A stretch of 49,407 nucleotides of DNA from contig NZ_HE978521.1 of the NCBI RefSeq assembly GCF_000311725.1, positions 31,887-81,293 on the forward strand, in the 5' to 3' direction. The DNA comes from Robertmurraya massiliosenegalensis JC6. Lineage in GTDB: Bacteria; Bacillota; Bacilli; Bacillales; Cytobacillaceae. Shown piece by piece: positions 11,181 through 37,724 of this stretch (within the stretch, counting starts at the first letter, position 1; the number at the start of each line of letters is the position of its first letter). The notes below the pieces were generated by a model, which worked only from the letters and a program-made list of their open reading frames with translations, was not told where the DNA came from and did no database searches. Made by a program: the position numbers and the translations under genes.

Positions 11181-11585
<405 letters not shown>

Positions 11586-15078: not shown

Positions 15079-16487
<1,409 letters not shown>

Positions 16488-21890: not shown

Positions 21891-22684
21891 TGGATAAAAT
21901 GATTTTTGGTCGTTATATCCCAGCTGAATCCCCTTTACATCGAATGGATCCAAGGTCAAAACTAATTCTTGTATTTGCATTTGTATGTATTGTATTTATT
22001 GCGAATAATGCGATTACGTATGGGTTATTAGTCGTCTATACGATTTTTATGGTCCTTTCTTCAAAAGTTCCGATTCGTTTTTTGCTTGGGGGACTTAAGC
22101 TCGTATTGTGGCTTGTCCTATTTACCCTTATCCTTCACCTCTTTTTCACGAAAGAAGGAGAAATTATTTTTCAATGGGGCTGGGTGACAATCTATGAAGA
22201 AGGATTAAAGAAAGGGATTTTCATTTCGATGAGATTCTTCCTCTTAATTTTAATCACTTCATTGCTAACATTAACGACAACGCCAATTGAAATTACGGAC
22301 GGGATTGAGGTGTTACTTGATCCGTTGAAAAAAATAAAGTTTCCAGTTCATGAATTAGCGCTTATGATGTCGATTTCATTGCGTTTTATTCCGACGCTGA
22401 TGCAAGAAACTGACAAAATTATGAAAGCCCAGACTGCCCGTGGAGTAGAGTTTTCAGGGGGACCAATGAAAGAACGAATCAAAGCGATTATCCCGCTCTT
22501 AATCCCATTATTTATCGGCTCCTTTAAACGAGCAGAGGAACTGGCGATCGCAATGGAAGCAAGAGGCTACCGAGGTGGAGAAGGACGAACAAAGTACCGT
22601 CAGCTAAGGTGGGGACTTGTCGATACATTGATGCTGTTACTGCTTGTAGTTTTAGCAGGGGCGCTGTTCTTTTTTAGGTCGTAG
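21887..22684 (+). CDS. ecfT: ECF transporter transmembrane subunit EcfT
   Basis: The 265-aa integral membrane protein has about five to six hydrophobic segments. It carries the two Ala-Arg-Gly coupling motifs (QTARGVEF and MEARGYRGG) that insert into the ATPase dimer. It starts FGRYIPAESPLHRMDPRSKL, as EcfT proteins typically do. It couples ATP hydrolysis to S-component toppling in the membrane. Confidence 0.94.
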   Translation: MMDKMIFGRYIPAESPLHRMDPRSKLILVFAFVCIVFIANNAITYGLLVVYTIFMVLSSKVPIRFLLGGLKLVLWLVLFTLILHLFFTKEGEIIFQWGWVTIYEEGLKKGIFISMRFFLLILITSLLTLTTTPIEITDGIEVLLDPLKKIKFPVHELALMMSISLRFIPTLMQETDKIMKAQTARGVEFSGGPMKERIKAIIPLLIPLFIGSFKRAEELAIAMEARGYRGGEGRTKYRQLRWGLVDTLMLLLLVVLAGALFFFRS

Positions 22685-22700
22685 ATAAATGGAGGAAAGT

Positions 22701-23441
22701 ATGCAGAGGTTAAAATGTAAGATCGCCTATGATGGTTCAGCATTTTCTGGTTATCAAATTCAACCGAATAAACGTACCGTTCAAGGAGAGCTAGAGCAGG
22801 CATTACAGAAGCTTCATAAAGGGCAAGAAGTGAAGGTCTATGCTTCCGGTCGTACAGATGCTGGAGTGCATGCTAGAGGACAAATCATTCATTTTGATAC
22901 ACTGCTCAAGATCCCCGAGGAAAAATGGCGTGTCGCTCTGCAGACGCTTCTCCCAGAAGACATTGCTATTGAATCTGTCATAAAGGTTGATTCTACATTC
23001 CATGCTCGCTTTGATGTAGTGGCAAAGGAATATCGTTATGTTGTCCATACTGAGCAAGTGCGGGATCCTTTTCGTCGTCACTTTGTTTATCATTATCCTT
23101 ATTCTGTTGATGTAGCGGCCATTCGGGACGCAAGTCAATATTTGCTCGGAGTCCATGATTTTACGAGTTTTTGCTCGGCTAAAACAGAAGTAGAAGATCG
23201 GGTAAGGGAAATTTATGAAATCGAAGTGCTGGAAGAAGAGGGGCTTCTTATTTTTCGTTTTATTGGGAATGGTTTCCTTTATAATATGGTTAGAATATTA
23301 GTGGGAACGTTGTTACAGGTAGGGTTAGGGAAAATCAAAGTGGCTGAAATCCCTGACATTTTGGCAAAAAAAGACCGAATCTATGCCGGAAAAACAGCAC
23401 CACCTCAAGGCTTATATTTATGGAAAGTGATGTATGAATGA
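22701..23441 (+). CDS. truA: tRNA pseudouridine(38-40) synthase TruA
   Basis: The 246-aa enzyme isomerises uridines 38-40 in the tRNA anticodon stem. The catalytic Asp53 lies in the motif GRTDAGVHA. The opening [18 protein letters not shown] and the C-terminal [11 protein letters not shown] segment are also typical. I chose the ATG at 22701, downstream of GGAGGAAAGT. The ATG at 22689 lies directly before that site. Confidence 0.95.
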
Positions 23442-23476
23442 TTTTAAAACAACTTGCCCTGGTGTCAAATAAATTC

Positions 23477-23505
23477 TTGACATATAGGCCTCAGTGTTTT
23501 ATCAT
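23477..23505 (+). promoter_or_regulatory. Sigma-A promoter of rplM-rpsI
   Basis: A perfect -35 TTGACA (23477-23482), a 17-nt spacer and TATCAT (23500-23505) predict transcription starting near 23512, about 100 nt before rplM. Confidence 0.75.
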
Positions 23506-23511
23506 AATATG

Positions 23512-23602
23512 GTATGTATTTTAATCCCACGATAAGCCCCGGAACTTATTGTGATATAGAATATACGATGATGAAAATGAATTTTGAAAATGAACAATTT
23601 TA
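23512..23602 (+). promoter_or_regulatory. L13 ribosomal leader (cis-regulatory RNA)
   Basis: The leader between promoter and rplM can form a 9-bp stem of CACGATAAG (23528-23536) with CTTATTGTG (23545-23553), one G-U pair, and a CCCCGGAA loop. Bacillus species carry a conserved L13 leader at this place, thought to let L13 repress rplM-rpsI. The match is by position and fold; a covariance-model search with the Rfam L13_leader family would settle it. Confidence 0.65.
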
Positions 23603-23614
23603 GGAGGGTAACTC

Positions 23615-24052
23615 ATGCGTACAACGTTTATGGCTAACGCTAACAATATCGAACGTAAATGGTACGTAGTGGATGCTGCAGGTATGACTTTAGGTCGTCT
23701 TACTTCTGAAGTAGCGTCTATTCTACGTGGTAAACATAAACCAACTTTCACACCACATGTTGACACTGGTGATCATGTAATTATTATTAATGCTTCTCAA
23801 ATCCACTTAACTGGTAAGAAGCTAACTGACAAAATCTACTACCGTCATTCTATGCACCCAGGTGGATTGAAGACAAGAACAGCGCTTGAAATGCGTACAA
23901 ACTACCCTGAAAGAATGCTTGAGCTTGCTATTAAAGGTATGCTTCCAAAGAATTCTTTAGGACGTCAAATGTTTAAGAAATTACATGTTTATGCTGGAGC
24001 AGAGCATCCACATCAAGCACAACAACCTGAAGTTTACGAACTTCGTGGGTAA
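23615..24052 (+). CDS. rplM: 50S ribosomal protein L13
   Basis: The 145-aa protein has the hallmarks [19 protein letters not shown] and the loop [14 protein letters not shown], ending in the basic [13 protein letters not shown] region. L13 acts early in 50S assembly. TAGGAGGG precedes the ATG. It is co-transcribed with rpsI 18 nt later. A second in-frame ATG lies five codons downstream. Confidence 0.97.
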
Positions 24053-24070
24053 TTAAGGGAGGATTTATAA

Positions 24071-24463
24071 ATGGCACAGGTTCAATATATTGGTACTGGT
24101 CGTCGTAAGAGCTCCGTTGCACGAGTTCGTTTAGTTCCAGGCAACGGCAAAATTACAGTAAACGATCGTGACATTACAGATTACATTCCATTCGAAGCAC
24201 TACGTGAAGTAGTAAAGCAACCATTAAACGCTACTGAAACTCTTGGTAGCTATGATGTTCTTGTTAACGTTAAAGGTGGCGGCTACACTGGTCAAGCTGG
24301 CGCAATCCGTCATGGTATCGCTCGTGCGTTACTTCAAGCTGACCCAGAATTCCGTCCAACTCTTAAGCGTGCTGGACTATTAACTCGTGACGCTCGTATG
24401 AAAGAACGTAAGAAATACGGTCTTAAAGGCGCTCGTCGTGCACCTCAGTTCTCAAAACGTTAA
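24071..24463 (+). CDS. rpsI: 30S ribosomal protein S9
   Basis: The 130-aa protein ([21 protein letters not shown]) has the conserved [19 protein letters not shown] core and the basic tail ending QFSKR, which reaches the P-site tRNA. The ribosome binding site is AAGGGAGG. It is the last conserved backbone gene before the accessory segment. Confidence 0.97.
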
Positions 24464-24476
24464 TTTCTGGCGTTTC

Positions 24477-24514
24477 AAGGCTCTCGAACCTTTTGGTTTG
24501 GGGGTCTTTTTTGT
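24477..24514 (+). terminator. Intrinsic terminator after rpsI
   Basis: CTCTCGAACC (24481-24490) pairs with GGTTTGGGGG (24495-24504) through several G-U pairs, followed by TCTTTTTTG. It ends rplM-rpsI 13 nt after the stop codon. The 24515-24692 stretch beyond it is AT-rich and contains only the upstream region of the next gene. Confidence 0.7.
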
Positions 24515-24692
24515 TAGAGAAATAATAAAAGTATAGATGCTTCAATAAATAAGCAAAAATAAAATTGAGAATATAGTTCATAAATGTACAAACTAAATAT
24601 AACGATAAGGCCATTTCTAAATAAAAATAGACTTGGTCTTTTCAATTTATTGTAATAATGGGGCTCTATACTAATAAAAAGGTGAGTAAACA

Positions 24693-27600
24693 ATGATTCA
24701 TAATGATTTGACTTTTTTTACGAATGAGGAAGAAAATACGTTACAAGCTCGATTTGCCAAGGTTTTAAGAAGCCATACTCAATTTTTTGATATATTAGTT
24801 GGTTACTTTAGGACAAGCGGTTTTTTCGAACTTTATCAGTCTCTAGAAGAAATAGAAAAAATAAGGATATTAGTTAGAATAAATGTTGATAAGAAGACCG
24901 TGGAATTAATTCATGCTGGGGAAAATGACCAATTGAGCTTTCATTTTTCATCTAAAGAAATAAAGGACCATTATAAAAAAGTGGTAACCAAGGAATTAGA
25001 ATCATCAGACGATACAAATAAAGTGGAGCTAGGAATTAAAAAGTTCATTGAATACATTAAATCTGAAAAATTACAAATTAGAGTATATCCGCATTCTCCT
25101 ATACATGCAAAGGTATATATTATGCGAAAAGATTTAACAAAGGTACCAGATCAATTTGGTTCAGTTATAACAGGATCAAGCAATTTCTCTTCTGCTGGAC
25201 TTATCAATAATCTCGAATTTAATGTCGAACTTAAGGATTATAGAGATGTAACATTTGCTTTGGAGCGTTTTGAGAAATTATGGAGTGAAGGAATTGAGGT
25301 TTCAGAGGAGTATATTGATACGATTACCAATAATACCTGGCTTCGGGAGGATATTACTCCTTATGAAATATATTTAAAATTTCTTTATGAATTTTTTAAA
25401 GAGGAAATTAATTCGGATAAGGAGTCACTTGAAGGCGTTTTTTTACCAGAGGGATACAAAAAATTACAGTATCAAGAGGATGCTGTTAGTAGAGCCAAAA
25501 AAATACTAGATGCCTATGGTGGGGTTTTCATTGCTGATGTAGTTGGTCTAGGTAAAACATATATATGTGCAATGCTCGCACAAAGATTAAAAAAAGGAAA
25601 GAAGCTTGTCATATGTCCACCTGTCTTAAAGGATTATTGGAAAAGAGTTATGCTTGAATTTGATGTTTCAGTTCGAGTTGAATCAATGGGAAAATTAGAC
25701 CGATTAATAGAAGAAGGATTAGAGGGGTATAGCTATGTGTTTATAGATGAAGCTCACAGGTTTAGGAATCAGGAAACGGAGAGTTATCAAAAACTACACC
25801 AGATTTGTTATGGTAAAAAGGTTATCCTTATTTCAGCTACTCCACAAAATAATAATCTTAATGATATAGCGAATCAAATATATCTATTTCAGAACAAACA
25901 TAACAGCGATGTAATCCCCAATGTGAAAAATATAGAACGTTTTTTCGCAAATCTACAAAAACGACTGGAAGAGCACGATCGATCGAGTCCGGAATATCAC
26001 ATAATGGTCCAGGAAAATTCCAAAGAAATAAGAGACAAAGTTTTGCAAAATATTATGGTAAGGAGAACACGGAGGGAAATCGAAAAGTACTATGAACAAG
26101 ACTTAAAAAAGCAGGGTCTCAATTTTCCAAAATTAACTTCACCGAAAAGAATCATTTATCAGTTCAATGAGTCTGTGGAAGATATTTTTAATAAAACAAT
26201 TGAGGTTATTCAGCAACTTAATTATGCTAGATATAGACCATTAACCTATCTAAAAAGAAGGGAAAGCCCGGAATTTGCAACAATGCTGGTTGGTCAAAGA
26301 AATATGGGTGGTTTTATGAAATCTATCTTGGTAAAACGTTTAGAGAGTAGTTTCTATGCGTTCGGTAAAACCATTGAAAGATTTATTAACTCATACAAGA
26401 AATTTATTGAAATGTATAACAATGGGGCTATTTACATTAGTAAAAAAGTAAATATATACGATTTACTCGACAACGGTAATGAGGAAGACGTTTTAAGGTT
26501 CATTGAAAGTGAAGATATACAAAAATATATGTCTTTTGAATTTGAACAACATTTCATTGAGGAACTAAGAGAGGATTTAACTCTATTAGAACGTATTAAA
26601 TACCTATGGTCAAACATTCAAACAGACCCAAAATTAGATGATTTCATTCATTATTTACAAAATGATCATGTTCTTCAGAACAATAAAATACTCATATTTA
26701 CTGAATCAATGGAGACAGCTGAATATTTACATAAAGAACTTAATCAAGTCCGTCCAGAAGAAATCATTTTATTTACAGGAAAGTCAAGCGATCATCTTCG
26801 TAATGAGATAGAATACAACTTTAATCCGGATTATAAAGGAAACGAGTATCAAAACTATTCCATTTTAGTCACAACAGATGTACTTGCTGAAGGGATAAAT
26901 TTGCATAAATCAAATGTTATCGTTAATTACGATTTACCTTGGAACCCCACAAAAATAATGCAAAGAGTAGGTCGTATAAACCGAGTAGGAACGAAACATA
27001 AAGAACTGTTTGTCTATAATTTTTTTCCTACTTCTCAATCAAGCAAACACCTAAGCTTAGAACAAAATATTATTACTAAAATTCAAGCGTTTCACGATAC
27101 ACTTGGCGAGGATTTTAAATATCTGTCAGATGAAGAAGAGGTGTCATCACATGAATTATTTGGCAGAAGATTTTTGGACAAACTTCAATCCTTTCACGAT
27201 AATGACTTTGAAGAGTCCGAGTCTGAACTGAAATATTTAAAATTATTGCGTAAGGTTAGAGATGAGTCACCAGAAATTTTTAATAAGATTAAAATGTTAC
27301 CTAAAAAAGCGCGATCAGGGAGTTTATCTGCTAATGTAAATGAAGAAGCAGTATTAACCTTTTTCAGAAAAGGAGCTTTAAAAAAGTTTTTAATTACCGA
27401 CACGAGTGTAAACCGAGGAACAGAACTAAGGTTATTTGATGCACTGAACCTAATCGAAGCTGATGAATCAACAAAGTCCTTAAAAATAAGCAGTAAATAT
27501 TATGAATACCTTGACATTAATAAGAAATCTTTTTTAGAATCAATTTCAACAGAAGAGCAGATTATAGGATCAAAGGCTTCAATAAAAAGAAATAAAAGCG

Positions 27601-27887
27601 ATAGTAAAGTAATGAATATGTTAAAAGCCTTAAGAAGGATAATCATTACTGAAAATGAGGAAAACCAATTATCTAGGTTAATGGAAATTTGGGAAAATGG
27701 AGTAATTCCTATAAAAATCACAAAAGAAGTATTATCCTCAACAAAGGGAATGACAGATCCACTTAAAGTATTCAATACAATATTAAATATCGTGCCAAAA
27801 CAATACTTAGCTACAGATGAAAAAATTATAGATAAAATGGAAGGCGATATTGAAATCATCTTGTCTTCATATCTGCAAAAGGGGTAA
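24693..27887 (+). CDS. PLD-family nuclease / SF2 (SNF2-like) helicase fusion of a restriction-like system
   Basis: The 1064-aa protein has two parts. Residues about 25-180 form a phospholipase-D-like nuclease half-site: H138-x-K140 (IHAKVY), GSSNFS (161-166) and Glu175 (NNLEFNVE). Residues about 250-860 form a superfamily 2 helicase: motif I DVVGLGKT (about 282-289), motif II DEAH (352-355), motif III SATP (381-384), and C-terminal motifs V-VI (TTDVLAEGINL and QRVGRINR at about 757-764). The last 200 residues are unassigned. A single HKD motif implies dimerisation, as in BfiI-type PLD nucleases. AAGGTGAG precedes the ATG; the methyltransferase starts 6 nt after the stop. Base use is clearly more AT-rich than in the ribosomal genes. 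I infer an ATP-dependent DNA translocase-nuclease acting on unmodified DNA. Confidence 0.85.
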   Translation: MIHNDLTFFTNEEENTLQARFAKVLRSHTQFFDILVGYFRTSGFFELYQSLEEIEKIRILVRINVDKKTVELIHAGENDQLSFHFSSKEIKDHYKKVVTKELESSDDTNKVELGIKKFIEYIKSEKLQIRVYPHSPIHAKVYIMRKDLTKVPDQFGSVITGSSNFSSAGLINNLEFNVELKDYRDVTFALERFEKLWSEGIEVSEEYIDTITNNTWLREDITPYEIYLKFLYEFFKEEINSDKESLEGVFLPEGYKKLQYQEDAVSRAKKILDAYGGVFIADVVGLGKTYICAMLAQRLKKGKKLVICPPVLKDYWKRVMLEFDVSVRVESMGKLDRLIEEGLEGYSYVFIDEAHRFRNQETESYQKLHQICYGKKVILISATPQNNNLNDIANQIYLFQNKHNSDVIPNVKNIERFFANLQKRLEEHDRSSPEYHIMVQENSKEIRDKVLQNIMVRRTRREIEKYYEQDLKKQGLNFPKLTSPKRIIYQFNESVEDIFNKTIEVIQQLNYARYRPLTYLKRRESPEFATMLVGQRNMGGFMKSILVKRLESSFYAFGKTIERFINSYKKFIEMYNNGAIYISKKVNIYDLLDNGNEEDVLRFIESEDIQKYMSFEFEQHFIEELREDLTLLERIKYLWSNIQTDPKLDDFIHYLQNDHVLQNNKILIFTESMETAEYLHKELNQVRPEEIILFTGKSSDHLRNEIEYNFNPDYKGNEYQNYSILVTTDVLAEGINLHKSNVIVNYDLPWNPTKIMQRVGRINRVGTKHKELFVYNFFPTSQSSKHLSLEQNIITKIQAFHDTLGEDFKYLSDEEEVSSHELFGRRFLDKLQSFHDNDFEESESELKYLKLLRKVRDESPEIFNKIKMLPKKARSGSLSANVNEEAVLTFFRKGALKKFLITDTSVNRGTELRLFDALNLIEADESTKSLKISSKYYEYLDINKKSFLESISTEEQIIGSKASIKRNKSDSKVMNMLKALRRIIITENEENQLSRLMEIWENGVIPIKITKEVLSSTKGMTDPLKVFNTILNIVPKQYLATDEKIIDKMEGDIEIILSSYLQKG

Positions 27888-27892
27888 TACGG

Positions 27893-30800
27893 GTGGCAAA
27901 GCTAAAAAGGGAATTGATTAAAGATGTGTTTGAAGCAAAATTTAATTTAGAAGCATTTAAAAAATTAATGATTGAGCTGTTTAACGGGAATATCATACAC
28001 CATAAAACAAATGGCGAATCCATGATTGAAAAAGAGTACCAAGAGCATATAAAGTCCTTTCATAGCTTATTTACCTATGAAACAAACGGTAAGAAAGTTT
28101 TAATTTTAACAGTAGAGTTATTTGAAGAAATAATGATTAAGAGGTCTAGAAATATCCAAAGAAACTTTGTGGCTAAATTATTGGAAATAAATGAATATGA
28201 TGCAGCGATTGTAGCTTTTTATTCAGCATTTCACGATGATTGGCGATTGTCCTTTGTTAACTTGGAGTATGAATTTACTGAAAAGGGACTTACGAAAAAG
28301 ATTACTCACCCTAGAAGATCTTCCTTTTTAGTGGGGCAAAAGGAGCCGAGCCATACTGCAAAAAAACAATTACTAACATTGTTTTCCGTGGATGAACCTA
28401 CTTTTGAAGACATGGAAAATGCCTTTAGTGTAGAAATGGTTACTAAGGAATTTTTCGATAAATACAAGGAGAAATATCTTGAACTTAAGGATCATTTAGA
28501 TAATGATAAAGAATTTTTAGCGGTTTCTGCTGAAAAGGGATTTAATAGCGAAGAATTTGCTAAAAAGCTACTTGGTCAAATAGCCTTCCTATACTTTTTA
28601 CAAAAGAAAGGGTGGCTAGGCGTACAAGCAGTTCCCGAAAAACTTTCTACTAAGGAATTTACTGATATTTTTAATACCTTAGAAACCGAAGATGCTCGAG
28701 ATATATTCAGCAAATCCTTTTCAAAAAGGAATCATGATGACTATGTCTTGCATAAAAAAATGATTAAAGAGTTAAGTGAAGTAGAGGCTGAAATCCTGGC
28801 GCAGTCCTTTAAAGGTACCAAACATTACAAGCAATTTGGTAAAGGTGACAAAAGCTTTATTCGAAATTTATTTAATCAAAAGGATGAAAACTCTAATTAC
28901 TTTAATGATTATTTAGAGCCATTGTTCTACGAAGCATTAAACCAAAAACGGGGAGAAACACATTATTATACACCATTTAATATGCGTATCCCGTTCTTAA
29001 ATGGTGGCTTATTTGAACCTTTAGAAGGATATAATTGGAGAGATAATGATTTTCATATCCCAGACTTTATTTTTTCAAATAAGGATGAAACCGGGATATT
29101 GGATGTTTTTGATTTATATAATTTTACGATTAATGAATCTGAACCTTTGGAAACCGAAGTGGCGATTGATCCGGAAATGTTAGGGAAAATATTTGAAAAC
29201 TTATTAGAAATATCCGATAGAAAAAGCAAAGGTGCATATTATACACCACGTGAAATCGTACATTATATGTGTCAGGAAAGTCTGATAAATTTCATTTGGA
29301 ACAAGCTAGGAATAGATAAAGACGATTTACGGAAGTTTGTTGAAATTCATGATATTGCACAAGGTAAATTAAAACATTTTGCTGAGAATAATTCGTTAAT
29401 TCCTGAATCCATAATAAATAATTGCCAAGCTATAGACAATGCGTTAGAGAATGTAAAGATTGCAGACCCAGCAGTTGGCTCAGGTGCCTTTGCTTTAGGT
29501 ATGTTAATTGAAATTGTAAAAATTAGAAGTAACTTAACACCATTAATGTCAAAAAACATAGATGAAGAAGAGCTTCAGTCCTTTTACCGTAGTAGAACCC
29601 CTTATCATTTAAAATTAAAAACAATGCAAAATAACATCTTTGCAGTTGATATTGATTTTAGTGCAACTGATATTACAAAATTAAGACTTTGGTTATCCTT
29701 AATTGTTGATGATGAAATAAACACTGTAAATCCATTACCTAATTTAGAATGTAATATTAAAACGGGCAACAGTCTAATACAAGAGTTTAAAGGAATTAAA
29801 CTTTTTGATGATAAATTGTTGAAAGCTAGATCTGTTTCCCAAAAGGGTAGAAAAAAAGATGATAAGTTACAACTTGATTTATTTAAGGATCAAAGGGAGG
29901 AAATTCTCAAAAATTTAAATAGCTTCCAAAGGCAGTTATTTAACGAACACGATAAGGACGTTAAGAACGACCTTAAGAATAAAATTGAAAAATTGGAATG
30001 GATATTAATTGAATACGAATTAGATAGGAACAAGAACCAGGAAGGTTTAGCTTTGATTGAAAAACTAAAAAAACAGAGAAGTAAGCCCTTCTTTCTTTGG
30101 AAACAGGTGTTTTCTGAAATCTTTATGAATAATGGTGGTTTCGATATTGTAATAGGAAATCCACCTTATGGAGCAAAGGTAAGTAAAGAAGAAAAGCTAG
30201 TCATTCAAAAAAAGATGATTGATACCAATAACTCGAATAGTGCGTCTGTATTTATAGACTATTCTAAAAACTACCTTTTAAATGAACAGGGTATTTTGTC
30301 TTTTATTGTTCCTAAATCGCTGCTTTACTCTGAAAAATGGTTTTCACTTGTACAAGCTCTAAATCGAAATACCGAGATATTAGTGGATGTAGAAAAGGCT
30401 TTTGAAAAAGTAAAATTGGAACAAGTTGTTTTTATATATAATAAAAATTTCGAAAGTACTGCTTACACAGGGAAAAAATTTATTGATAAAAAATTTGTTC
30501 AGTCAACTTCAATTAATAATGACTTAGTTAATAAATTTAGAGCATGGATTTGCGATGTTAAGGTCGAGGATTTAGATATTGTCAACAGCTTGAAGAATGA
30601 TTTGATCCCAATGAGCAAAATCTCGACTACTAAAAGAGGAGTAGGTCTACAAAAATTCCTAAAGGATGAGGGAGACATTCCCGTTGTAGGTGGAAAGAAT
30701 CTTGATCGATTCATGATGAAAGGCCATAAAGGCTATATAGCAAAAGATATGATTGAGGGCCATCAAACAAAATTGGCATTTATGCAACAACCCAAAATTA

Positions 30801-31261
30801 TGTCGCAGGATTTAGTTGCTCATATACAAAACCCAGTACCACGAATACGAATAACATCTTGCTATGATCTGAGCGGAAAAATATTAAGTGTTGACACTGT
30901 GCAAAATACAGTGATTACGGATGATCATTTTGATGGGTACTTTATTGAAGGACTTTTAAATTCAAATTTTGTAAGCTGGTACACATATAAATTTATTTAT
31001 TGTTCTGCAATTAGAACAATGCATTTTGATAATGGTTACATTGGGAAGATTGTCATTCCCGCTGCAACTAAAGATCAGCAACGACCTATTATAGAAATTG
31101 TGAAAAATATTCATCGTTTAAATGAAAGTTCATTTAATGGATTAGACGAGCATCAATCAAAAGAAATAAAAAAATATATCAATGAACTAAACACATATGT
31201 ATATAACTTATACGGTTTAACAGCAAATCAAATAGAGGTTATTGAAAGAACCTTTAGATAA
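27893..31261 (+). CDS. Eco57I/PglX-like adenine-specific DNA methyltransferase with TaqI-like specificity domain
   Basis: The 1122-aa protein starts at GTG, 8 nt after AAAAGGGG. Residues 1-150 are a family-typical N-terminal region (SFLVGQKEPSHTA near 146-158). A linker with FLNGGLFEP and KGAYYTPREIVHYM leads into the SAM-dependent catalytic domain: motif I DPAVGSGAF (from residue 525) and motif IV NPPY (756-759), the N6-adenine type. The C-terminal 250 residues (KISTTKRGVG onward) resemble the TaqI-like target recognition domain. I see no PD-(D/E)xK nuclease in the N-terminus, so cleavage would fall to the partner protein. It is coupled to the helicase gene and AT-rich like it. The likely role is modification of the host recognition site in a defence system. 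Confidence 0.87.
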   Translation: MAKLKRELIKDVFEAKFNLEAFKKLMIELFNGNIIHHKTNGESMIEKEYQEHIKSFHSLFTYETNGKKVLILTVELFEEIMIKRSRNIQRNFVAKLLEINEYDAAIVAFYSAFHDDWRLSFVNLEYEFTEKGLTKKITHPRRSSFLVGQKEPSHTAKKQLLTLFSVDEPTFEDMENAFSVEMVTKEFFDKYKEKYLELKDHLDNDKEFLAVSAEKGFNSEEFAKKLLGQIAFLYFLQKKGWLGVQAVPEKLSTKEFTDIFNTLETEDARDIFSKSFSKRNHDDYVLHKKMIKELSEVEAEILAQSFKGTKHYKQFGKGDKSFIRNLFNQKDENSNYFNDYLEPLFYEALNQKRGETHYYTPFNMRIPFLNGGLFEPLEGYNWRDNDFHIPDFIFSNKDETGILDVFDLYNFTINESEPLETEVAIDPEMLGKIFENLLEISDRKSKGAYYTPREIVHYMCQESLINFIWNKLGIDKDDLRKFVEIHDIAQGKLKHFAENNSLIPESIINNCQAIDNALENVKIADPAVGSGAFALGMLIEIVKIRSNLTPLMSKNIDEEELQSFYRSRTPYHLKLKTMQNNIFAVDIDFSATDITKLRLWLSLIVDDEINTVNPLPNLECNIKTGNSLIQEFKGIKLFDDKLLKARSVSQKGRKKDDKLQLDLFKDQREEILKNLNSFQRQLFNEHDKDVKNDLKNKIEKLEWILIEYELDRNKNQEGLALIEKLKKQRSKPFFLWKQVFSEIFMNNGGFDIVIGNPPYGAKVSKEEKLVIQKKMIDTNNSNSASVFIDYSKNYLLNEQGILSFIVPKSLLYSEKWFSLVQALNRNTEILVDVEKAFEKVKLEQVVFIYNKNFESTAYTGKKFIDKKFVQSTSINNDLVNKFRAWICDVKVEDLDIVNSLKNDLIPMSKISTTKRGVGLQKFLKDEGDIPVVGGKNLDRFMMKGHKGYIAKDMIEGHQTKLAFMQQPKIMSQDLVAHIQNPVPRIRITSCYDLSGKILSVDTVQNTVITDDHFDGYFIEGLLNSNFVSWYTYKFIYCSAIRTMHFDNGYIGKIVIPAATKDQQRPIIEIVKNIHRLNESSFNGLDEHQSKEIKKYINELNTYVYNLYGLTANQIEVIERTFR

Positions 31262-31266
31262 TATTT

Positions 31267-31299
31267 TTTAACACACCTTTTATGGGTGTGTTTTTTATT
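31267..31299 (+). terminator. Terminator of the restriction-like operon
   Basis: AACACACC and GGGTGTGTT form a hairpin with a TTTTAT loop and run into TTTTTT. It starts about 8 nt after the methyltransferase stop codon, so the next gene is probably expressed separately. Confidence 0.75.
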
Positions 31300-31359
31300 G
31301 ATGAAGGAAAAAACGCATGGTTTGTAGAATATCAATATAAAAAAGAAAGAGGGGTTTTT

Positions 31360-31776
31360 ATGAACGATAGTCAATTTTTTGAAGTACTAGGTTTTTTGAG
31401 TAACAGGAATATATTAATCGAAGCTGAGGTATCAAAAAAAGTTGCAACTAAGTTTGAAAGGGAATACCTAGAAATGACAGGTGAGCTTGTTAGAGGAGTA
31501 CCGGAATATTATATAATTGACGACAAATGGGGAAAAGAATTAAGGGTCTATATTTCAGACATAGCTAATGTTCCTAGCCAATTAAGTAGTATTTTGAGAA
31601 CTGATACATACAAAGGCTACCCGGCGAGATTTAATAATAATGATATTATTACTCGAATGTTCAGGTATGGATTTCGTATAGCTTCGGTCCAGGATAGGGC
31701 ATTAATTGAGAAATCAATACCAGCAGACTATCAAGGAGATTTCAAGAAGGGCCAAGAAATTATACTTTTGAAGTAA
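31360..31776 (+). CDS. Uncharacterised 138-aa protein next to the restriction-like pair
   Basis: I do not recognise this protein. It starts MNDSQFFEVLGFLSNRNILI, is soluble and charged, and has no membrane segment, signal peptide or cysteine motif. I chose the ATG at 31360, about 6 nt after AAGAAAGAGGGG. A longer frame from 31282 would begin inside the preceding terminator. The AT-rich base use matches the two upstream genes, so it may have arrived with them. It may be an accessory, immunity or regulatory protein, but nothing in the sequence shows which. Confidence 0.65.
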   Translation: MNDSQFFEVLGFLSNRNILIEAEVSKKVATKFEREYLEMTGELVRGVPEYYIIDDKWGKELRVYISDIANVPSQLSSILRTDTYKGYPARFNNNDIITRMFRYGFRIASVQDRALIEKSIPADYQGDFKKGQEIILLK

Positions 31777-31793
31777 GAAATGTCCTATGAACC

Positions 31794-31828
31794 AAAGTGT
31801 GTTGATATAACAGCACACCTTGGTTACA
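31794..31828. terminator. Imperfect hairpin between convergent genes
   Basis: CCAAAGTGTGTTG pairs with CAGCACACCTTGG around ATATAA, with two G-U pairs. It lies between the 138-aa gene and the convergent 229-aa gene. No T-run follows on either strand, so it may act as an RNA stability element instead of a terminator. Confidence 0.4.
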
Positions 31829-31863
31829 GGTATACGAACTATCCTGTTAGCTTAGGTGAAGCA

Positions 31864-32553
31864 TTACCATTTCATCAGTTCATTTAGAAATACCCTTTCA
31901 TCCTTAACTTCTGTATCGGTATCTTTGATAACTACATAATGTTCATCAATTCCCCTAATATTAATGGTCGTTACCTTATATTTTTTGGTTTTGTCAATCT
32001 TAATGAAAATCATTTTCGCAGGATCTTGATAGTGTAAAATAATCCATACATTTTCATCGGGATGATTTTTAATATATTCAATTTTATCCGGTCTAATCCA
32101 GTAATCTGACCCTCTCATTTTTTCCGATCCAGAAACCTCTATTTTAGCAACTTCATCAGTCTGAACTTGTACGCTTAAATCGGGTGAGCCATGTTCTTTC
32201 GTATGGGTAAAGATGGCATCTGTGGAATCAGCTCCAAAACCGATAATCTCAACGCTAATATCGCTTCGCTTTGTTTCAATATACTTTTTAACTGCTTCAA
32301 TTCTAACCTTTTCTCTTTCCCAAGAGCCATTGTTATACAGCGTTTTCCACTTAAATTCATTTTCGAACTTTAGTTGTTTAATATCAACATCCATGCCTTC
32401 TTTTAAGTCCCAGGATTGATATATAGCAGGATGCACCCATGTCGTGGAACCATCACGAAAATCAATATAATATCTTACAACGGCTGTTTCCCCTTTTGGT
32501 ATCCAAGGTTTAATTCTCAAAATTACTGCCAATTTAGTTGCCCCTTTCACCAT
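31864..32553 (-). CDS. Uncharacterised 229-aa protein with possible restriction-endonuclease-like fold
   Basis: The soluble protein has a segment that looks like a PD-(D/E)xK core: GSPDLSVQVQ, then KIEVSGSEKMRG and YWIRPDKIEYIKNHP, ending in strand-like VWIILHY. The spacing Asp...Glu-x-Ser resembles D...E-x-K with the lysine replaced. The fold assignment is inference. An N-terminal strand-rich region (VVRYYIDFRDGSTTWVHP) is of unknown type. A TTG at 32532, 9 nt after AAAGGGG, is a possible better start than the ATG at 32553. It lies next to the restriction-like locus on the opposite strand and may belong to the same island. Confidence 0.7.
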   Translation of the reverse strand: MVKGATKLAVILRIKPWIPKGETAVVRYYIDFRDGSTTWVHPAIYQSWDLKEGMDVDIKQLKFENEFKWKTLYNNGSWEREKVRIEAVKKYIETKRSDISVEIIGFGADSTDAIFTHTKEHGSPDLSVQVQTDEVAKIEVSGSEKMRGSDYWIRPDKIEYIKNHPDENVWIILHYQDPAKMIFIKIDKTKKYKVTTINIRGIDEHYVVIKDTDTEVKDERVFLNELMKW

Positions 32554-32678
32554 TTCTCTAACCTTACACTAATTTGACTAAATTTCCATTTATCCTCTTT
32601 TTAGTATATATGAAAAATATATTAGAATATAATTAAATCTTTCTGCTCTCCAAACTGTCTTTTTAAGTGCTTTAAAAT

Positions 32679-32724
32679 TTGACTTCATCTTCAAACAGGA
32701 ATATTATCTAATAGTGTTAGATAA
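32679..32724 (+). promoter_or_regulatory. Promoter and palindromic operator of the marR-ABC operon
   Basis: TTGACT (32679-32684), a 17-nt spacer and TATTAT (32702-32707) form a sigma-A promoter. A perfect 8-bp inverted repeat, TTATCTAA-N5-TTAGATAA (32704-32724), overlaps the -10 box and start site. A 21-nt palindrome in this position upstream of a MarR gene is what an autoregulatory operator looks like. Binding by the encoded MarR is inference. Confidence 0.75.
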
Positions 32725-32741
32725 AAGAGAGGGGAGAGATC

Positions 32742-33176
32742 ATGACCTACAAAGAGCTAGCAAATGAACTGTTTGATACGATGAAAAAAATCATTCATAA
32801 ACCCTTTCAGAAAAAAGTAGGAGATATCACGCAAGGGGAACGAAGAATTTTAGGATTTCTTACCTTTGAAGGAGATGGGCTAACAGCAGGTGAGCTCAGC
32901 GAAAAGCTTCACTTTAGCACTCCTCGAATTGCATCTGTATTAAAAAGTTTAGAGAAGAAAGATTTTATTAAGCGTGATCGAGATCCAAAGGATAAAAGGG
33001 TTGTTGTCGTTCATATTACGGATACGGGGAAAAGCTTTGTATTAGAAGAGCATGAAAAGGCGATGATGATGCTTGAAGAGCTTCTCGCAAAACTAGGGGA
33101 AAAGGATACAAAGGAATTAATCAGAATTATGTCTCGCATCGTCGAAATCACAAACAAGAGTGAAAAAGGGGATTAA
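32742..33176 (+). CDS. MarR-family transcriptional regulator
   Basis: The 144-aa protein has the winged helix-turn-helix of MarR regulators: helices around LTAGELSEKLHFSTPRIASVLKSLEK and the wing DRDPKDKRVVVVHITDTG. Flanking helices would form the dimer. GAGAGGGGAGA precedes the ATG. It is the first gene of an operon with two ABC exporter genes and lies just downstream of a palindrome over its promoter. The simplest model is ligand-relieved repression of the exporter. Confidence 0.88.
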   Translation: MTYKELANELFDTMKKIIHKPFQKKVGDITQGERRILGFLTFEGDGLTAGELSEKLHFSTPRIASVLKSLEKKDFIKRDRDPKDKRVVVVHITDTGKSFVLEEHEKAMMMLEELLAKLGEKDTKELIRIMSRIVEITNKSEKGD

Positions 33177-33183
33177 AAAAATC

Positions 33184-34947
33184 ATGGTGAAAATCTTAAA
33201 ATACCTTGAGAAAAAAGATTGGCTTCTCATATTGGGCTGTTTGGTATTCATCGTAACCCAGGTTTGGCTGGATTTAAAGCTACCTGATTATATGTATGAG
33301 ATTACGATGCTTGTCCAAACAGAAGGAAGTCAAATGAGTGACATTTTGTTACAAGGTGGCTATATGCTTATATGTGCAGTTGGCAGTATGGCTGCAGCGA
33401 TTGTGGTCGGTTACTTTGCGGCAAAAGTGGCCGCAGGATTTGCAGTTCGCTTGCGTGGAAAAGTGTTTGAAAAGACGATGTCCTTTTCCATGGAAGAGAT
33501 CAATGGTTTCTCAACGGCTAGTTTAATTACTCGGTCTACAAATGATATTACACAGATTCAATTATTGATTGCCATGGGGCTTCAGGCCATTGTAAAGGCA
33601 CCGATTTTGGCTGTATGGGCGATCGCAAAAATTATGGGGAAGAGCTGGCAATGGACGGCTGCAACCGGGTTTGCGGTAGTATTCTTAATTTTATTATTAT
33701 CAATGGTGATTTTTATCGCGATGCCAAAATTTAAAGTCATTCAAGGCCTCACCGATAACTTGAACCGCGTAACTCGAGAAAACTTAACAGGAATACGAGT
33801 TGTGCGAGCTTACAATGCAGAGGATTATCAGGAAGCAAAATTTGAAAAAGCAAATGAGGATTTAACGAAAACGAATTTGTTCGTCACTCGATTGATGGCT
33901 CTTATGCAACCAAGCATGGGTTTAATAATGTCGGGAATAAGCTTATCGATCTATTGGATTGGGGCCTATCTCATATACAATGCCGCAATGGTCGATCGAT
34001 TACCGCTATTTTCTGATATGGTTGTTTTCTCTTCCTATGCGATGCAAGTCATTATGGCGTTTATGCTCCTATCGATTGTGTTCTTTTTGCTACCAAGAGC
34101 ATCCGTATCGGCAAAGCGGATCAATGAAGTATTAGATACAAAGGCAAAGATTGTTGATGGAAACCTGACTGAAGGAAAAGAAGGACAAGTGGGAGAAGTG
34201 GAGTTCAAAAATGTTAGCTTCAAATATCCTGATGCGGCCGATTCTATTTTGCAAAACATTAACTTTAAGGCAAGTGTTGGGGAAACTGTCGCTTTTATTG
34301 GGTCTACTGGGAGCGGGAAAAGTACATTGATCAATCTAATTCCACGATTCTATGATGCGACCGAAGGGGAAATATTGGTCGATGGGGTAAATGTCAAAGA
34401 CTATACCCAAGAGGCGCTTCATAATAAGCTTGGCTACGTATCGCAAAAAGCCGTGTTATTTAGCGGTACGGTTTCATCAAATGTTTCATATGGCGACAAT
34501 GGACAAAATGATCCAGGTGAGGAAGTCGTGAAAAAAGCGATTGAAATTGCCCAAGGTAAGGATTTTGTGGAAAAAATGGAAGGTCAATACGAGGCAAGTG
34601 TCGCCCAAGGAGGTACCAATATTTCCGGAGGGCAAAAGCAAAGGCTATCCATTGCACGTGCGATTGCAAGAAAGCCGGAAATTTATCTATTTGATGATTC
34701 ATTTTCTGCTCTCGATTATAAGACAGATCGAGTGTTGCGCTCAGCTCTCAAAAAAGAAATCGACAACGCCACCACTTTAATTGTCGCTCAACGGATTGGG
34801 ACGATTATAGACGCCGACCGGATCATTGTGCTGGATCAAGGAAAAGTGGCGGGAATAGGTACACATGAAGAGTTAATGAAAAGCTGCAGTGTATATCAAG
34901 AAATTGCGTATTCCCAATTAACGAAGGAGGAGCTTGAAGTTGGCTAA
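33184..34947 (+). CDS. Heterodimeric ABC exporter half, degenerate-site subunit
   Basis: The 587-aa protein has an N-terminal six-helix ABC transmembrane domain (about 1-310) and a C-terminal ATPase domain with Walker A (GSTGSGKST) and signature ISGGQKQR. Its Walker B reads IYLFDDSFSALD, with Asp where the catalytic Glu is expected. The switch histidine is replaced by Gln (IVAQRIGT). This is the pattern of the non-catalytic partner in heterodimeric multidrug exporters such as TM287/288 or LmrCD. I prefer the ATG at 33184, after AAAGGGGA; a GTG at 33160 overlaps marR. The substrate is unknown. Confidence 0.9.
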   Translation: MVKILKYLEKKDWLLILGCLVFIVTQVWLDLKLPDYMYEITMLVQTEGSQMSDILLQGGYMLICAVGSMAAAIVVGYFAAKVAAGFAVRLRGKVFEKTMSFSMEEINGFSTASLITRSTNDITQIQLLIAMGLQAIVKAPILAVWAIAKIMGKSWQWTAATGFAVVFLILLLSMVIFIAMPKFKVIQGLTDNLNRVTRENLTGIRVVRAYNAEDYQEAKFEKANEDLTKTNLFVTRLMALMQPSMGLIMSGISLSIYWIGAYLIYNAAMVDRLPLFSDMVVFSSYAMQVIMAFMLLSIVFFLLPRASVSAKRINEVLDTKAKIVDGNLTEGKEGQVGEVEFKNVSFKYPDAADSILQNINFKASVGETVAFIGSTGSGKSTLINLIPRFYDATEGEILVDGVNVKDYTQEALHNKLGYVSQKAVLFSGTVSSNVSYGDNGQNDPGEEVVKKAIEIAQGKDFVEKMEGQYEASVAQGGTNISGGQKQRLSIARAIARKPEIYLFDDSFSALDYKTDRVLRSALKKEIDNATTLIVAQRIGTIIDADRIIVLDQGKVAGIGTHEELMKSCSVYQEIAYSQLTKEELEVG

Positions 34948-36808
34948 TAAAGAAATGGCAAATGAGCAAAAGATGGCTCCTGAGGATAATCAAATAAAAG
35001 GAAGCAAAGGCGCTCATCCAGGACCACCAGGTGGTGCAATGGGTGCTCCGGGAGCAAAACCCAAAAACGTAAAAAAGGCGATGAAACAGTTAATTGGCTA
35101 CTGTAGGAAGTATTTGGCCTTCATCATTATAGCTTTAGCACTTGGGATGGTAGGAGCAATCTTTAATATTGTCGGACCAGAGATCCTTAGTCAAATGACA
35201 GATTTAATCGGGGAAGGATTAATGGCAGAAATCGACCTTGATGCCATTATTCGCTTAGCGGTAATTCTGGCAATTTTGTATGGCTTAGGATTTATCTTTA
35301 ACTATGTTCAAGGATTCATCATGGCGACCATTACTCAAAGCGTAACGAAACGATTGAGAACGGATATTTCTACGAAAATCAATCGCTTGCCGTTAAAATA
35401 TTTCGATAAAACGAGTTATGGTGATATTCTGAGTCGTGTTACGAATGACATTGATTTAATTGCACAAACGATGAATCAAAGCTTAGGAATGTTGGTGACC
35501 TCTTTAACGATGTTCTTAGGTTCTCTCGTGATGATGTTCTATACGAACTGGATCATGGCTCTTTCGGCTGTGCTGTCAACAATCGTTGGTTTTGGATGCA
35601 TGTCTTTAATTATCTCTAAATCGCAACGTCATTTTATTCAACAGCAACAGGAACTAGGAAAGCTCAATGGGCATATTGAGGAGACGTATTCTGGCCATAC
35701 TATCGTCAAGGTATACAACGGTGAGAAAGCAGCGAAAAATACATTTCATGATATCAATACAAGATTGTATGATAGTGCCTGGAAATCACAGTTTATGTCC
35801 GGTCTCATGATGCCGCTGATGATGTTTGTCGGAAATTTCGGCTATGTTGTCGTTTGTATTGTCGGAGCGGTATTGGTTCACAACGGATCGATTTCATTTG
35901 GCGTCATCGTCGCTTTCATGATTTATATACGTCTCTTTACTCAACCTCTTTCTCAACTTGCGCAAGTAGCGACGAGCTTACAATCGACTGCTGCTGCAAG
36001 TGAGCGCGTATTTGAATTCATTGATGAGGAAGAACTAGATAACGAAAGCGATAAGATGGAAAAGCTAGAAACAGCGAAAGGGAATGTGGAATTTCGTCAT
36101 GTCCGTTTTGGGTATAGTGAGGATAAAATGGTCATTAATGACTTTTCCGCAATCGCTAAAGCAGGACAGAAGGTAGCGATTGTTGGTCCTACCGGAGCGG
36201 GTAAGACGACGCTTGTCAATTTACTGATGCGCTTTTATGAAATCAATGATGGGGAAATATTGATTGATGGTGTGCCGATTGACAAGCTGACGAGGGAGAA
36301 TATTCACAATCTGTTTTGTATGGTTTTGCAAGATACATGGCTATTTGAAGGGACGATTCGTGAAAATATTAAATACTCAAAAGAATATGTAACCGATGAA
36401 AAAGTAGAAGAAGCTTGTAAGGCAGTGGGGCTCCATCATTTCATTAAAACGCTGCCTCTGGGCTATGACACAATTTTAGATGATAAAGCGAATTTGTCAT
36501 CTGGTCAAAAACAGCTCATTACGATTGCTCGTGCAATGGTTGAAAATGCACCATTACTTATTCTAGATGAGGCGACAAGCTCTGTAGATACACGAACAGA
36601 GGTATTGATTCAAGAAGCGATGGATAAGTTGACTGTCGGTAAAACATCTTTCGTCATTGCTCACAGGCTCTCTACCATAAAAAATGCAGATCTAATCCTT
36701 GTGATGAAGGATGGAGATATTATCGAAAGTGGCAATCACGAAGAACTACTCGAAAAAAATGGCTTCTATTCAGAGCTTTACAATAGCCAATTTGAACAAG
36801 TTTCATAA
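34940..36808 (+). CDS. Heterodimeric ABC exporter half, catalytic subunit
   Basis: The 622-aa protein starts with a Gly/Pro-rich linker (HPGPPGGAMGAPGAKP, about residues 30-45). A six-helix transmembrane domain and an ATPase domain follow, with Walker A GPTGAGKTT, Walker B ILDEATSSVD with the catalytic Glu, and H-loop VIAHRLSTI. Its signature reads LSSGQKQ, the usual variant in this partner. It complements the degenerate subunit upstream. Its start lies inside the upstream gene: TTG at 34940 is 9 nt after AAGGAGG, though TTG 34934 or ATG 34955 are possible. Confidence 0.9.
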   Translation: MANKEMANEQKMAPEDNQIKGSKGAHPGPPGGAMGAPGAKPKNVKKAMKQLIGYCRKYLAFIIIALALGMVGAIFNIVGPEILSQMTDLIGEGLMAEIDLDAIIRLAVILAILYGLGFIFNYVQGFIMATITQSVTKRLRTDISTKINRLPLKYFDKTSYGDILSRVTNDIDLIAQTMNQSLGMLVTSLTMFLGSLVMMFYTNWIMALSAVLSTIVGFGCMSLIISKSQRHFIQQQQELGKLNGHIEETYSGHTIVKVYNGEKAAKNTFHDINTRLYDSAWKSQFMSGLMMPLMMFVGNFGYVVVCIVGAVLVHNGSISFGVIVAFMIYIRLFTQPLSQLAQVATSLQSTAAASERVFEFIDEEELDNESDKMEKLETAKGNVEFRHVRFGYSEDKMVINDFSAIAKAGQKVAIVGPTGAGKTTLVNLLMRFYEINDGEILIDGVPIDKLTRENIHNLFCMVLQDTWLFEGTIRENIKYSKEYVTDEKVEEACKAVGLHHFIKTLPLGYDTILDDKANLSSGQKQLITIARAMVENAPLLILDEATSSVDTRTEVLIQEAMDKLTVGKTSFVIAHRLSTIKNADLILVMKDGDIIESGNHEELLEKNGFYSELYNSQFEQVS

Positions 36809-36820
36809 GATGTATAGAAA

Positions 36821-36857
36821 GGCTCTCATTCCACATGGATTGAGAGCCGTTTTTTCT
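36821..36857 (+). terminator. Terminator of the marR-ABC operon
   Basis: GGCTCTCA (36821-36828) pairs with TGAGAGCC (36841-36848) and is followed by GTTTTTTCTTT. It lies 12 nt after the exporter stop codon. Confidence 0.85.
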
Positions 36858-36932
36858 TTATTGACTCTCTTGCATAAAGATGCTGTGCAAAAGAAATGCT
36901 AAAAGAAAAAAAGTTTTCCAATAGGTGAAAGT

Positions 36933-37340
36933 ATGGACAATCATAGTAATGATAATTCAGCAAGAAGATACATAGCCCATGTTAGCATTCTAGGTACGAC
37001 GCAAATTCATCTTCGTAATCCCTATATTATCGCTTGGTGGAGCGCTGCTTTCCCAGGGTTTGGGCATCTTCTATTATCGAAGTATCTTCGCGGTTTCGTG
37101 TTGTTTATGTGGGAAGTCGTCGTCAATATTAAATGCAATCTCAATTTTGCCATGATCTATTCTTTCCAAGGTGATATTGAAAAGGCGAAAGATATTTTGG
37201 ATACAAGGTGGTTATTAATCTATATACCGGTTTATATTTTTGGAATTTGGGATAGTTATCGAACAACCGTTGATATGAACAAAGTATATATTTTGGCAGA
37301 GCATGAGGAACACAGATTCAATTCATTTAGTATTGGCTAG
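36933..37340 (+). CDS. Small membrane protein, paralogue A
   Basis: The 135-aa protein has about three hydrophobic segments (AWWSAAFPGFGHLLL, GFVLFMWEVVV, WLLIYIPVYIFGIWD). The PGFGHLLL-type turn resembles TM2-like small membrane proteins. It shares GDIEKA, WLL and the D/SY..T motif with the next gene, so the two are paralogues. AGGTGAAAG precedes the ATG. The function is unknown. Confidence 0.8.
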   Translation: MDNHSNDNSARRYIAHVSILGTTQIHLRNPYIIAWWSAAFPGFGHLLLSKYLRGFVLFMWEVVVNIKCNLNFAMIYSFQGDIEKAKDILDTRWLLIYIPVYIFGIWDSYRTTVDMNKVYILAEHEEHRFNSFSIG

Positions 37341-37355
37341 CTTGAAATTAATTAT

Positions 37356-37721: not shown

Positions 37722-37724
37722 AGC

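Follow-up and report, generated by a model that had tools for sequence, protein, structure and literature searches.

Two adjacent genes of Robertmurraya massiliosenegalensis JC6, one for a fusion of a phospholipase D (PLD)-type nuclease with a helicase and one for an N6-adenine methyltransferase (MTase), raise the question of what kind of system they form and which of the two proteins selects the DNA target. They lie in a stretch of 49,407 nt, called the window below (GCF_000311725.1, NZ_HE978521.1, 31,887-81,293 of the forward strand; contig 11 of G000 in our numbering), to which all positions refer unless another locus is named. The helicase (P0001) and the MTase (P0002) were compared with profile models, published systems and their own relatives. 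The pair is probably a two-subunit ATP-dependent restriction-modification (R-M) system of Type III/ISP-like logic, with specificity residing in the MTase and probable switching of its target recognition domain (TRD) in relatives.

A PLD-SNF2 helicase linked to an adenine methyltransferase

In P0001, the PLD domain is followed by a complete superfamily 2 (SF2) helicase of the SNF2 type, for which Pfam returned SNF2-rel_dom/ResIII/DEAD and Helicase_C (aa 648-766, 1.5e-21). The C-terminal part of about 260 amino acids (aa) lies outside the assigned folds. An alignment of 39 P0001-family sequences, including archaeal and cyanobacterial ones, revealed invariant residues in the nuclease (H138, K140, G161-S162-S163-N164, E175 and N177) and in the motor (Walker A G285-L286-G287-K288, D352-E353-H355 and Q757-R758-G760-R761). 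Invariance of the PLD active-site residues argues for a nuclease that is needed. As P0001 contains one HxK half-site only, its PLD domain is expected to dimerize. The AlphaFold model (mean pLDDT 73.1) matched SNF2 remodellers, RapA and SauUSI in a PDB fold search, all with low TM-scores; SauUSI (7clg) was rank 5 by E-value, with a TM-score of about 0.2. The P0002 model was of similar quality (mean pLDDT 73.3). Since both models are of middling confidence, fold matches were used for broad class only.

In SauUSI, as in P0001, a PLD half-site nuclease at the N-terminus precedes an SF2 motor in one chain; SauUSI acts as a dimer that translocates and cuts, with nuclease domains that form a stable dimer (PMC7913695). 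It is a Type IV enzyme that uses its own SRA reader to cut DNA with modified cytosine (PMC7913695), whereas no reader domain was found in P0001 (neither SRA nor DUF3427 in the Pfam scan) and an MTase with a TRD accompanies it. From the common domain order and the fold rank, P0001 might be taken for a modification-dependent nuclease of the Type IV kind, cutting DNA that others have marked, with the MTase as an accidental neighbor. Without SRA or DUF3427, and with MTase linkage recurring across phyla, this explanation is very improbable.

P0002 was recognized by Pfam as Eco57I (5.9e-23), N6_Mtase (5e-09) and TaqI_C (3.9e-06), and its model folds like CamA, BrxX, MmeI, M.TaqI and BpuSI. Identity to 25 homologues amounts to 0.43-0.78 over aa 301-650 and to 0.08-0.13 over aa 851-1100. 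In the N-terminal domain (aa 1-245), which is possibly the docking face for the helicase, the alignment of 26 homologues contained no invariant PD-(D/E)xK pattern. A PDB sequence search gave 0 matches for full-length P0002 and one match for this domain, which was not credible (E 0.93). The best PADLOC model was REase_MTase_IIG (1.2e-118), and a look-alike locus of Prevotella, described below, has been assigned to Type IIG (PMC5608340). Both assignments would suit a self-sufficient Type IIG enzyme with an N-terminal nuclease, encoded beside an unrelated helicase. Against this stand the missing PD-(D/E)xK signature, the lack of a credible PDB sequence match and the helicase linkage in 35/36 loci. 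P0002 thus appears to lie outside Type IIG, membership of which was rejected on its motifs, and the idea of a self-sufficient enzyme seems hardly probable at all.

The two open reading frames (ORFs) have separate stop and start codons and are 5 nt apart (27888-27892). A scan of genome contigs yielded 41 loci with P0001 relatives, five of which have a helicase gene that ends or breaks (L031, L043, L044, L045 and L046). In 35 of the 36 assessable loci, the MTase gene lies directly downstream of the helicase gene; L038, one of the 35, has a broken MTase frame, and the exception is L033, with 539 nt left. Spacing ranged from -31 to +11 nt in 26 measured pairs. This linkage indicates that helicase and MTase form a unit.

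The linkage recurs across phyla. Eight plasmid records, opened from the best 40 of 609 matches in the plasmid collection, came from Prevotella (two), Parabacteroides, Allomeiothermus, Thermus, Thermococcus, Synechocystis and Natrinema. All eight contain a P0002-like MTase within about 4.2 kb, in varying gene order, with direct adjacency in three (Parabacteroides, P. nigrescens and Natrinema). Viral contigs (IMG/VR) provided 80 loci of 305 relatives; the four that were checked (L110, L111, L112 and L116) all carry the MTase, and their helicases are full-length and 39-45% identical.

Most of what a first-pass annotation had read from the sequence was borne out by these results. It had described a PLD half-site fused to a full SF2 helicase (confirmed as PLDc_2 with one HxK, GSSN, E175 and the SNF2 motifs), followed by an N6-adenine MTase with DPAVGSGAF, NPPY and a TaqI-like C-terminal domain (supported by Pfam and invariant residues) and no visible nuclease, in agreement with the N-terminal alignment. 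Its view that the PLD half-sites must pair is consistent with the single half-site and with the SauUSI dimer among the fold matches, and the co-occurrence of both genes across genomes was found. Of the tools that it had named, PADLOC detected no DISARM or BREX model among ten flanking proteins at 1e-15 and gave P0002 a Type IIG label that the motifs do not support; structure prediction provided the broad class of both proteins.

Some loci depart from the usual layout. The helicase gene of L045 (near 4213) and L046 (near 9948) breaks after Walker A and runs into unrelated sequence, by insertion or metagenome misassembly. On the Allomeiothermus (L050) and Thermus (L052) plasmids, the MTase ORFs are shorter (787 and 810 aa) and are followed first by a separate hypothetical gene and next by the PLD-helicase gene, as though the TRD had a gene of its own.

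TRD exchange and the seat of specificity

Over 325 MTase pairs, mean identity was 0.58 for the MTase body and 0.21 for the TRD, with 0.64 for the helicase. Closely related loci displayed the same feature in a sharper form. L014 and L015 share 99% of the helicase, 99% of the MTase body and 29% of the TRD; the corresponding values are 98%, 97% and 23% for L042/L047, and 98%, 93% and 26% for L008/L042. At the DNA level, L042 and L047 are 91% identical over 8.1 kb to the last base of the NPPY codons; beyond the TRD, which differs, another 2.3 kb are 91% identical, starting where the gene ends. The border of identity falls on the same base in L007/L041, and 8 nt and 18 nt behind NPPY in L008/L042 and L014/L015, respectively.

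TRD exchange beside helicases that are 98-99% identical indicates that specificity sits in the MTase. A helicase with a matching specificity of its own would hardly survive such exchanges; therefore, it should take its targeting from the MTase. The first-pass annotation had assigned the reading of unmodified DNA to the helicase protein. This claim was not upheld, as no reader domain was found and TRDs that are 23-29% identical stand beside near-identical helicases. Judged by sequence only, the MTase would set the specificity while the motor-nuclease has no matched specificity, as in Type III/ISP-like logic, for which TRD exchange is the main support.

Type III enzymes are likewise ATP-dependent motor-nucleases with a specificity set by the MTase. 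Their Res nuclease (EcoP15I) is of the PD-(D/E)xK type, whereas that of the pair is PLDc_2. The pair differs from both Type III and Type ISP by its PLD nuclease, which takes the place of PD-(D/E)xK, by its SNF2-type motor and by the gamma order of its MTase (motif I, NPPY, TRD). In Type ISP enzymes, which are also ATP-dependent motor-nucleases directed by their MTase/TRD part, nuclease, motor, MTase and TRD form one polypeptide (LlaGI, LlaBIII), whereas the pair consists of two genes (PMC3874165).

We infer complex formation, methylation by P0002, translocation, cleavage and phage defense in the following order. With its C-terminal TRD, the MTase would bind a short target, which is probably asymmetric, and methylate an adenine there, marking self DNA. 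At an unmethylated site, the MTase-bound complex would activate the helicase partner, itself without matched specificity, and the SNF2 motor would move along the duplex. Two PLD half-sites, belonging either to one dimer or to enzymes that converge, would pair and cut foreign DNA, for example that of phages. In several relatives, a serine invertase would swap the active TRD for a silent one in inverted orientation; the specificity of the window copy is fixed.

Inverted silent TRD cassettes in relatives

Cassettes were surveyed in 24 genome-contig loci that contain the end of the MTase gene and at least 2.3 kb behind it; L038 (broken) and L012 and L019 (shortened) were counted. A second TRD on the opposite strand was present in six of them (L012, L018, L024, L035, L036 and L040), and a serine recombinase of about 200 aa in seven, namely the six cassette loci and, as a remnant, L019. 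Four scanned recombinases matched Pfam Resolvase (1.4e-33 to 1.1e-36). With the recombinase of L024, a locus of the gut isolate Gallibacter intestinalis DSM 108706, those of L012, L018, L035, L036, L040, L105 and L110 share 64-81% identity. The silent TRD of L036 matches the active TRD of L015 (42% over 377 aa), and a silent TRD of the Prevotella locus matches the active TRD of L029 (49% over 314 aa).

The inverted arms are perfect over 37 nt in L036, and extend over 47 nt (96%) in the Prevotella locus, 313 nt (93%) in L012, 30 nt (93%) in L024 and 34 nt (88%) in L035; in L018 and L040 they are weaker. Some arms, chiefly those of L018 and L040, correspond to similarity between both TRDs and not to junctions. 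The arms of L036 and L105 coincide with the NPPY codons, the same place as the start of TRD exchange; those of the Clostridia loci are situated deeper in the gene. The shared stretch begins at, or at most 3 nt from, the 8-mer GAG[GC]G[TC]TT (GAGSGYTT) in L012, L018, L024, L036 and L040, and contains it in L035 and L105. The 8-mer occurs in the MTase gene of 8/8 loci with a cassette or recombinase, versus 2/19 others, neither of which is a demonstrated junction. Since GAGSGYTT was read off the cassette loci, the 8/8 is circular, and its scarcity in the other 19 loci alone is informative.

The Prevotella nigrescens locus (L105) comprises the helicase, the MTase, two inverted silent Eco57I/TRD cassettes and a recombinase (cassettes and recombinase at 9157-13494), so that the stretch read holds one active and two silent TRDs. 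Its record carries the annotation 'master DNA invertase Mpi family serine-type recombinase'. A 16-base sequence that has internal dyad symmetry, GACCCTCAAAAGAGGG, is common to all three junctions; one copy reads along the MTase strand and the other two are in inverted orientation. GAGSGYTT is missing from the second silent cassette. In these relatives, a serine invertase probably swaps the TRD with inverted silent copies and so switches specificity; actual inversion is what we infer from the silent TRDs, repeats and recombinase. The cassettes go beyond anything that the first-pass annotation had expected.

Three further features were noted at such loci. In L105, a gene for an AAA_14/DUF4143 ATPase (10210-11469) lies between the two silent TRD cassettes. 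In L019, the MTase gene overlaps a truncated serine recombinase (15443-15760), like a recombination scar. On the viral contig L110, a serine recombinase is found behind the MTase.

In the window, no second TRD was detected within 18 kb downstream of the pair, no match to two query recombinases was obtained at 1e-6 between 20 and 45 kb, and the P0002 gene contains no GAGSGYTT core site. By these features, the window copy is a fixed-specificity member and falls outside the phase-variable R-M systems. This bears on the proposal that the pair is mainly an epigenetic switch (phasevarion), in which the MTase regulates genes, the helicase is a maintenance or repair partner and restriction is secondary. 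Invertible TRD cassettes with a serine recombinase do resemble phase-variable Type I systems. However, the window copy, without cassette, recombinase or core site, still has an intact PLD-helicase, and the helicase exceeds the MTase body in mean identity over the 325 pairs. We consider a mainly regulatory role distinctly improbable.

Specificity switching within an R-M system also bears on a published case. In P. intermedia 17F, the Pin17FIII MTase gene (22231-25584, 3354 bp) has an SNF2/RAD54 helicase upstream and is followed by ORF9595, a partial MTase gene of 918 bp (complement 25608-26525) (PMC5608340). The strain displays three N6-methyladenine (m6A) motifs, GGNYAG, CCNYAG and GGYGAB; when cloned in E. 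coli, the MTase produced GGYGAB alone, and ORF9595 alone produced none (PMC5608340). GGYGAB has its sole fixed adenine on one strand, and the authors suspected an interaction with the helicase and assigned the locus to Type IIG (PMC5608340). The upstream helicase, the MTase and the opposite-strand partial MTase are like those of the pair and its relatives, whereas the accessible part of that article proposes neither a PLD domain nor TRD inversion, nor that MTase and helicase belong together (PMC5608340). As gene order and sizes agree with L105, ORF9595 would be a silent inverted TRD, and the other motifs would come from cells with other TRDs. A second silent TRD in 17F is a prediction, one silent ORF being named in the part of the article available (PMC5608340). 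TRD switching may explain the three m6A motifs left unresolved in P. intermedia: if the invertase operates as proposed, one strain would show several m6A motifs from one locus, as 17F shows three.

Several points weigh against a cleaving, MTase-guided R-M system. P0001 is without the HKD aspartate, R145 occupying its position (invariant in 36 closer sequences), so that nuclease activity is likely, not certain. Systems that combine an MTase with a helicase need not cleave, a matter of debate for BREX. L014 and L015 are metagenome bins; the isolates L008, L042 and L047 agree with the result obtained from them. In other pairs of loci, the TRDs are similar as well: those of L010 and L041 are 84% identical with 84% identical helicases, and those of L022 and L047 are 78% identical with 76% identical helicases. 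The kinship of the 17F locus rests on gene order, sizes and description, no such record being among the matches listed. Finally, the system is rare. The helicase family was found in 2/101 genomes of the window's family (the window's own and a distant relative), in 2/398 genomes of its class, the window's own included, and in 5/391 genomes of the class of G102 (the L042 genome, included), where two of the five have partial helicase genes.

Where the helicase occurs, linkage was again observed. In G314, the second relative in the window's class, the MTase lies directly behind the helicase. In the same 391 genomes the MTase profile matched four, all among the five helicase carriers, and the MTase of the fifth is cut by the contig end.

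Position among known systems and genomic setting

HKD nucleases have been noted with SF2 helicases in other systems (PMC10853773, PMC2292703, PMC3710099). The nearest filed system with the helicase layout of P0001 is the Type-2 BR set (PMC12839542). It comprises a DUF499 ATPase, DUF3780, a DUF1156 N6-MTase and an HKD-Snf2 helicase, the last with the same layout as P0001 and likewise near an N6-MTase (PMC12839542). Its models are NCBIfam NF042962-NF042964 and PADLOC PLD_Helicase. P0001 reached 159.5 bits with NF042964, versus a cut-off of 1100, and P0002 gave no NF042963 hit; in a control locus (L100), the helicase scored 1361.7 bits and the MTase 1407.8 with NF042963. DUF499 (PF04465) had 0 matches in the window's genome, with a model that matches 1/14 control genomes. 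P0001 is 23-30% identical to five Type-2 BR helicases in blast segments, and four pair-family MTases, including P0002, had no blast match in Type-2 BR loci at 1e-4. In a tree, 21 pair helicases were separated from the five Type-2 BR helicases with a support of 100/100; because long branches meet among its distant rows, only this split was used. Membership of Type-2 BR was rejected, given the absence of DUF499, a helicase below the cut-off and no DUF1156-family MTase.

DISARM and BREX were assessed in the same way. DrmA, DrmB and DrmC were found neither among ten flanking proteins (1e-15) nor in the two small ORFs behind the MTase, smaller and farther ORFs being unscanned; with the DrmD model (NF038317), P0001 reached 157.9 bits versus a cut-off of 610. 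DISARM membership was rejected on both counts, and the absence of DrmA and DrmB claimed at first pass held for the ten flanking proteins. The best PglX score was 28.1 bits versus a cut-off of 900, and no BREX model was present among the ten flanking proteins, so that BREX was rejected as well. PADLOC 'mad3' matches of four flanking ATPases were set aside, as by our own reading these are ABC-transporter ATPases.

A DISARM/BREX-like exclusion might still be imagined, in which MTase modification identifies self and the PLD-helicase keeps phage DNA out, by blocking or ejecting it, with no sequence-triggered cleavage as in Type III/ISP enzymes. It would agree with the weak matches of P0001 to DrmD (at the score above), BrxH, DrmA and HmaA models (1e-40 to 1e-23), with those of P0002 to DrmMI and PglX models and with the BrxX fold match. 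It is nevertheless unlikely: the genome has no DUF499, the ten flanking proteins contain no DISARM or BREX model at 1e-15, and the invariant PLD residues point to a nuclease that is required.

The R-M systems CglI and NgoAVII resemble the pair in combining a PLD nuclease, an SF2 ATPase and an MTase (PMC4267653, PMC5737866, PMC7913695). Their R protein joins the PLD domain to a B3 TRD and their ATPase is separate, whereas the pair has PLD and motor on a single chain and places the TRD in its MTase (PMC4267653, PMC5737866, PMC7913695). Together with SauUSI, they may be regarded as mechanistic precedents.

Classical Type I, III, ISP, BREX and DISARM systems thus do not accommodate the pair, which supports the compact two-gene R-M-like system suggested at first pass. 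No search placed it in a well-characterized class, the P. intermedia look-alike being filed as Type IIG (PMC5608340). No description of the pair as a unit or of its TRD inversion was found in the literature searched, most subscription journals lying outside the search. We are inclined to regard these loci as an undescribed class of ATP-dependent R-M systems, in which a PLD-SNF2 motor-nuclease is guided by a separate gamma-MTase/TRD, and specificity can be switched by an Mpi-type invertase, with recombination at short sites either at the NPPY codons of the MTase gene or deeper within its TRD half.

If this is true, a family of MTases labelled Type IIG by PADLOC models would be mislabelled, their nuclease being in the neighboring PLD-SNF2 motor. 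For studying how a TRD guides a motor on another chain, the pair would offer a two-gene model in which natural exchanges have altered the TRD beside an almost constant motor. In gut and oral bacteria, the invertible form would let a serine invertase shift the restriction specificity and methylome of a whole population. There would also be a testable answer to the three-motif puzzle of Prevotella, where the cloned locus reproduced one motif (PMC5608340).

Features of the gene pair and its surroundings are collected in Table 1.

Table 1. Positions in the window of the two genes, their domains and motifs, and adjacent features.
Feature	Position	Strand	Remarks
PLD-SNF2 helicase P0001	24693..27887	+	ATG, 1064 aa, intact ORF; predicted restriction-motor subunit
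PLD nuclease domain, Pfam PLDc_2 aa 29-197	24777..25283	+	4.7e-10; HxK 138-140, GSSN 161-164, E175
Walker A GLGKT aa 285-289, SNF2 motor	25545..25559	+	G285-K288 invariant, T289 nearly so
Walker B DEAH box aa 352-355	25746..25757	+	D352, E353, H355 invariant
Helicase motif VI QRVGRINR aa 757-764	26961..26984	+	Q757, R758, G760, R761, R764 invariant
PglX/Eco57I-like N6-adenine MTase P0002 with C-terminal TRD	27893..31261	+	GTG, 1122 aa, intact; predicted modification and specificity subunit
N-terminal alpha/beta domain aa 1-245	27893..28627	+	Family-conserved, without invariant PD-(D/E)xK residues
MTase motif I DPAVGSGAF aa 525-533	29465..29491	+	Contains invariant residues
MTase catalytic NPPY aa 756-759	30158..30169	+	Contains invariant residues; TRD divergence starts here in relatives
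Variable C-terminal part with TRD, from about aa 836	30398..31258	+	Pfam TaqI_C aa 930-1052
Intrinsic-terminator-like hairpin	31270..31292	+	Directly 3' of MTase stop
rpsI	24071..24463	+	Pair directly 3' of rpsI; rplM-rpsI naming from own sequence reading

Given the hairpin behind the MTase gene, the operon most likely consists of two genes; terminator-like sites numbered 6 in the region, versus 2.9 expected from shuffles. The pair region is AT-rich, with a G+C content of 0.30-0.33 over 25-32 kb, versus 0.38-0.42 at 20-24 kb and 0.39-0.42 at 33-37 kb. Two small ORFs follow the pair, still within this AT-rich stretch or at its border (P0003, 31282-31776; P0004, 31864-32553). They were rejected as extra components, as they had no weighty family match and no homologue in the loci fetched for that comparison.

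The helicase was found in 0/6 relatives from the genus at 1e-60. In these six genomes, the fetched stretches (5 to 17.5 kb) gave no DNA match to window 24514-38246, and in two of them similarity to the window resumes at 38247. Since this DNA is missing behind rpsI in the six relatives, rpsI is followed by a variable insertion site in this genus, and the pair was apparently gained horizontally there. A copy of the rpsI 3' end that could be an att site was sought behind the pair in the window, and the original only was found. Among the relatives, G056 has a tyrosine integrase behind rpsI, and in G002 60 bp of the rpsI 3' end are repeated 6.5 kb downstream, at the flank of a YcaO/nitroreductase cluster.

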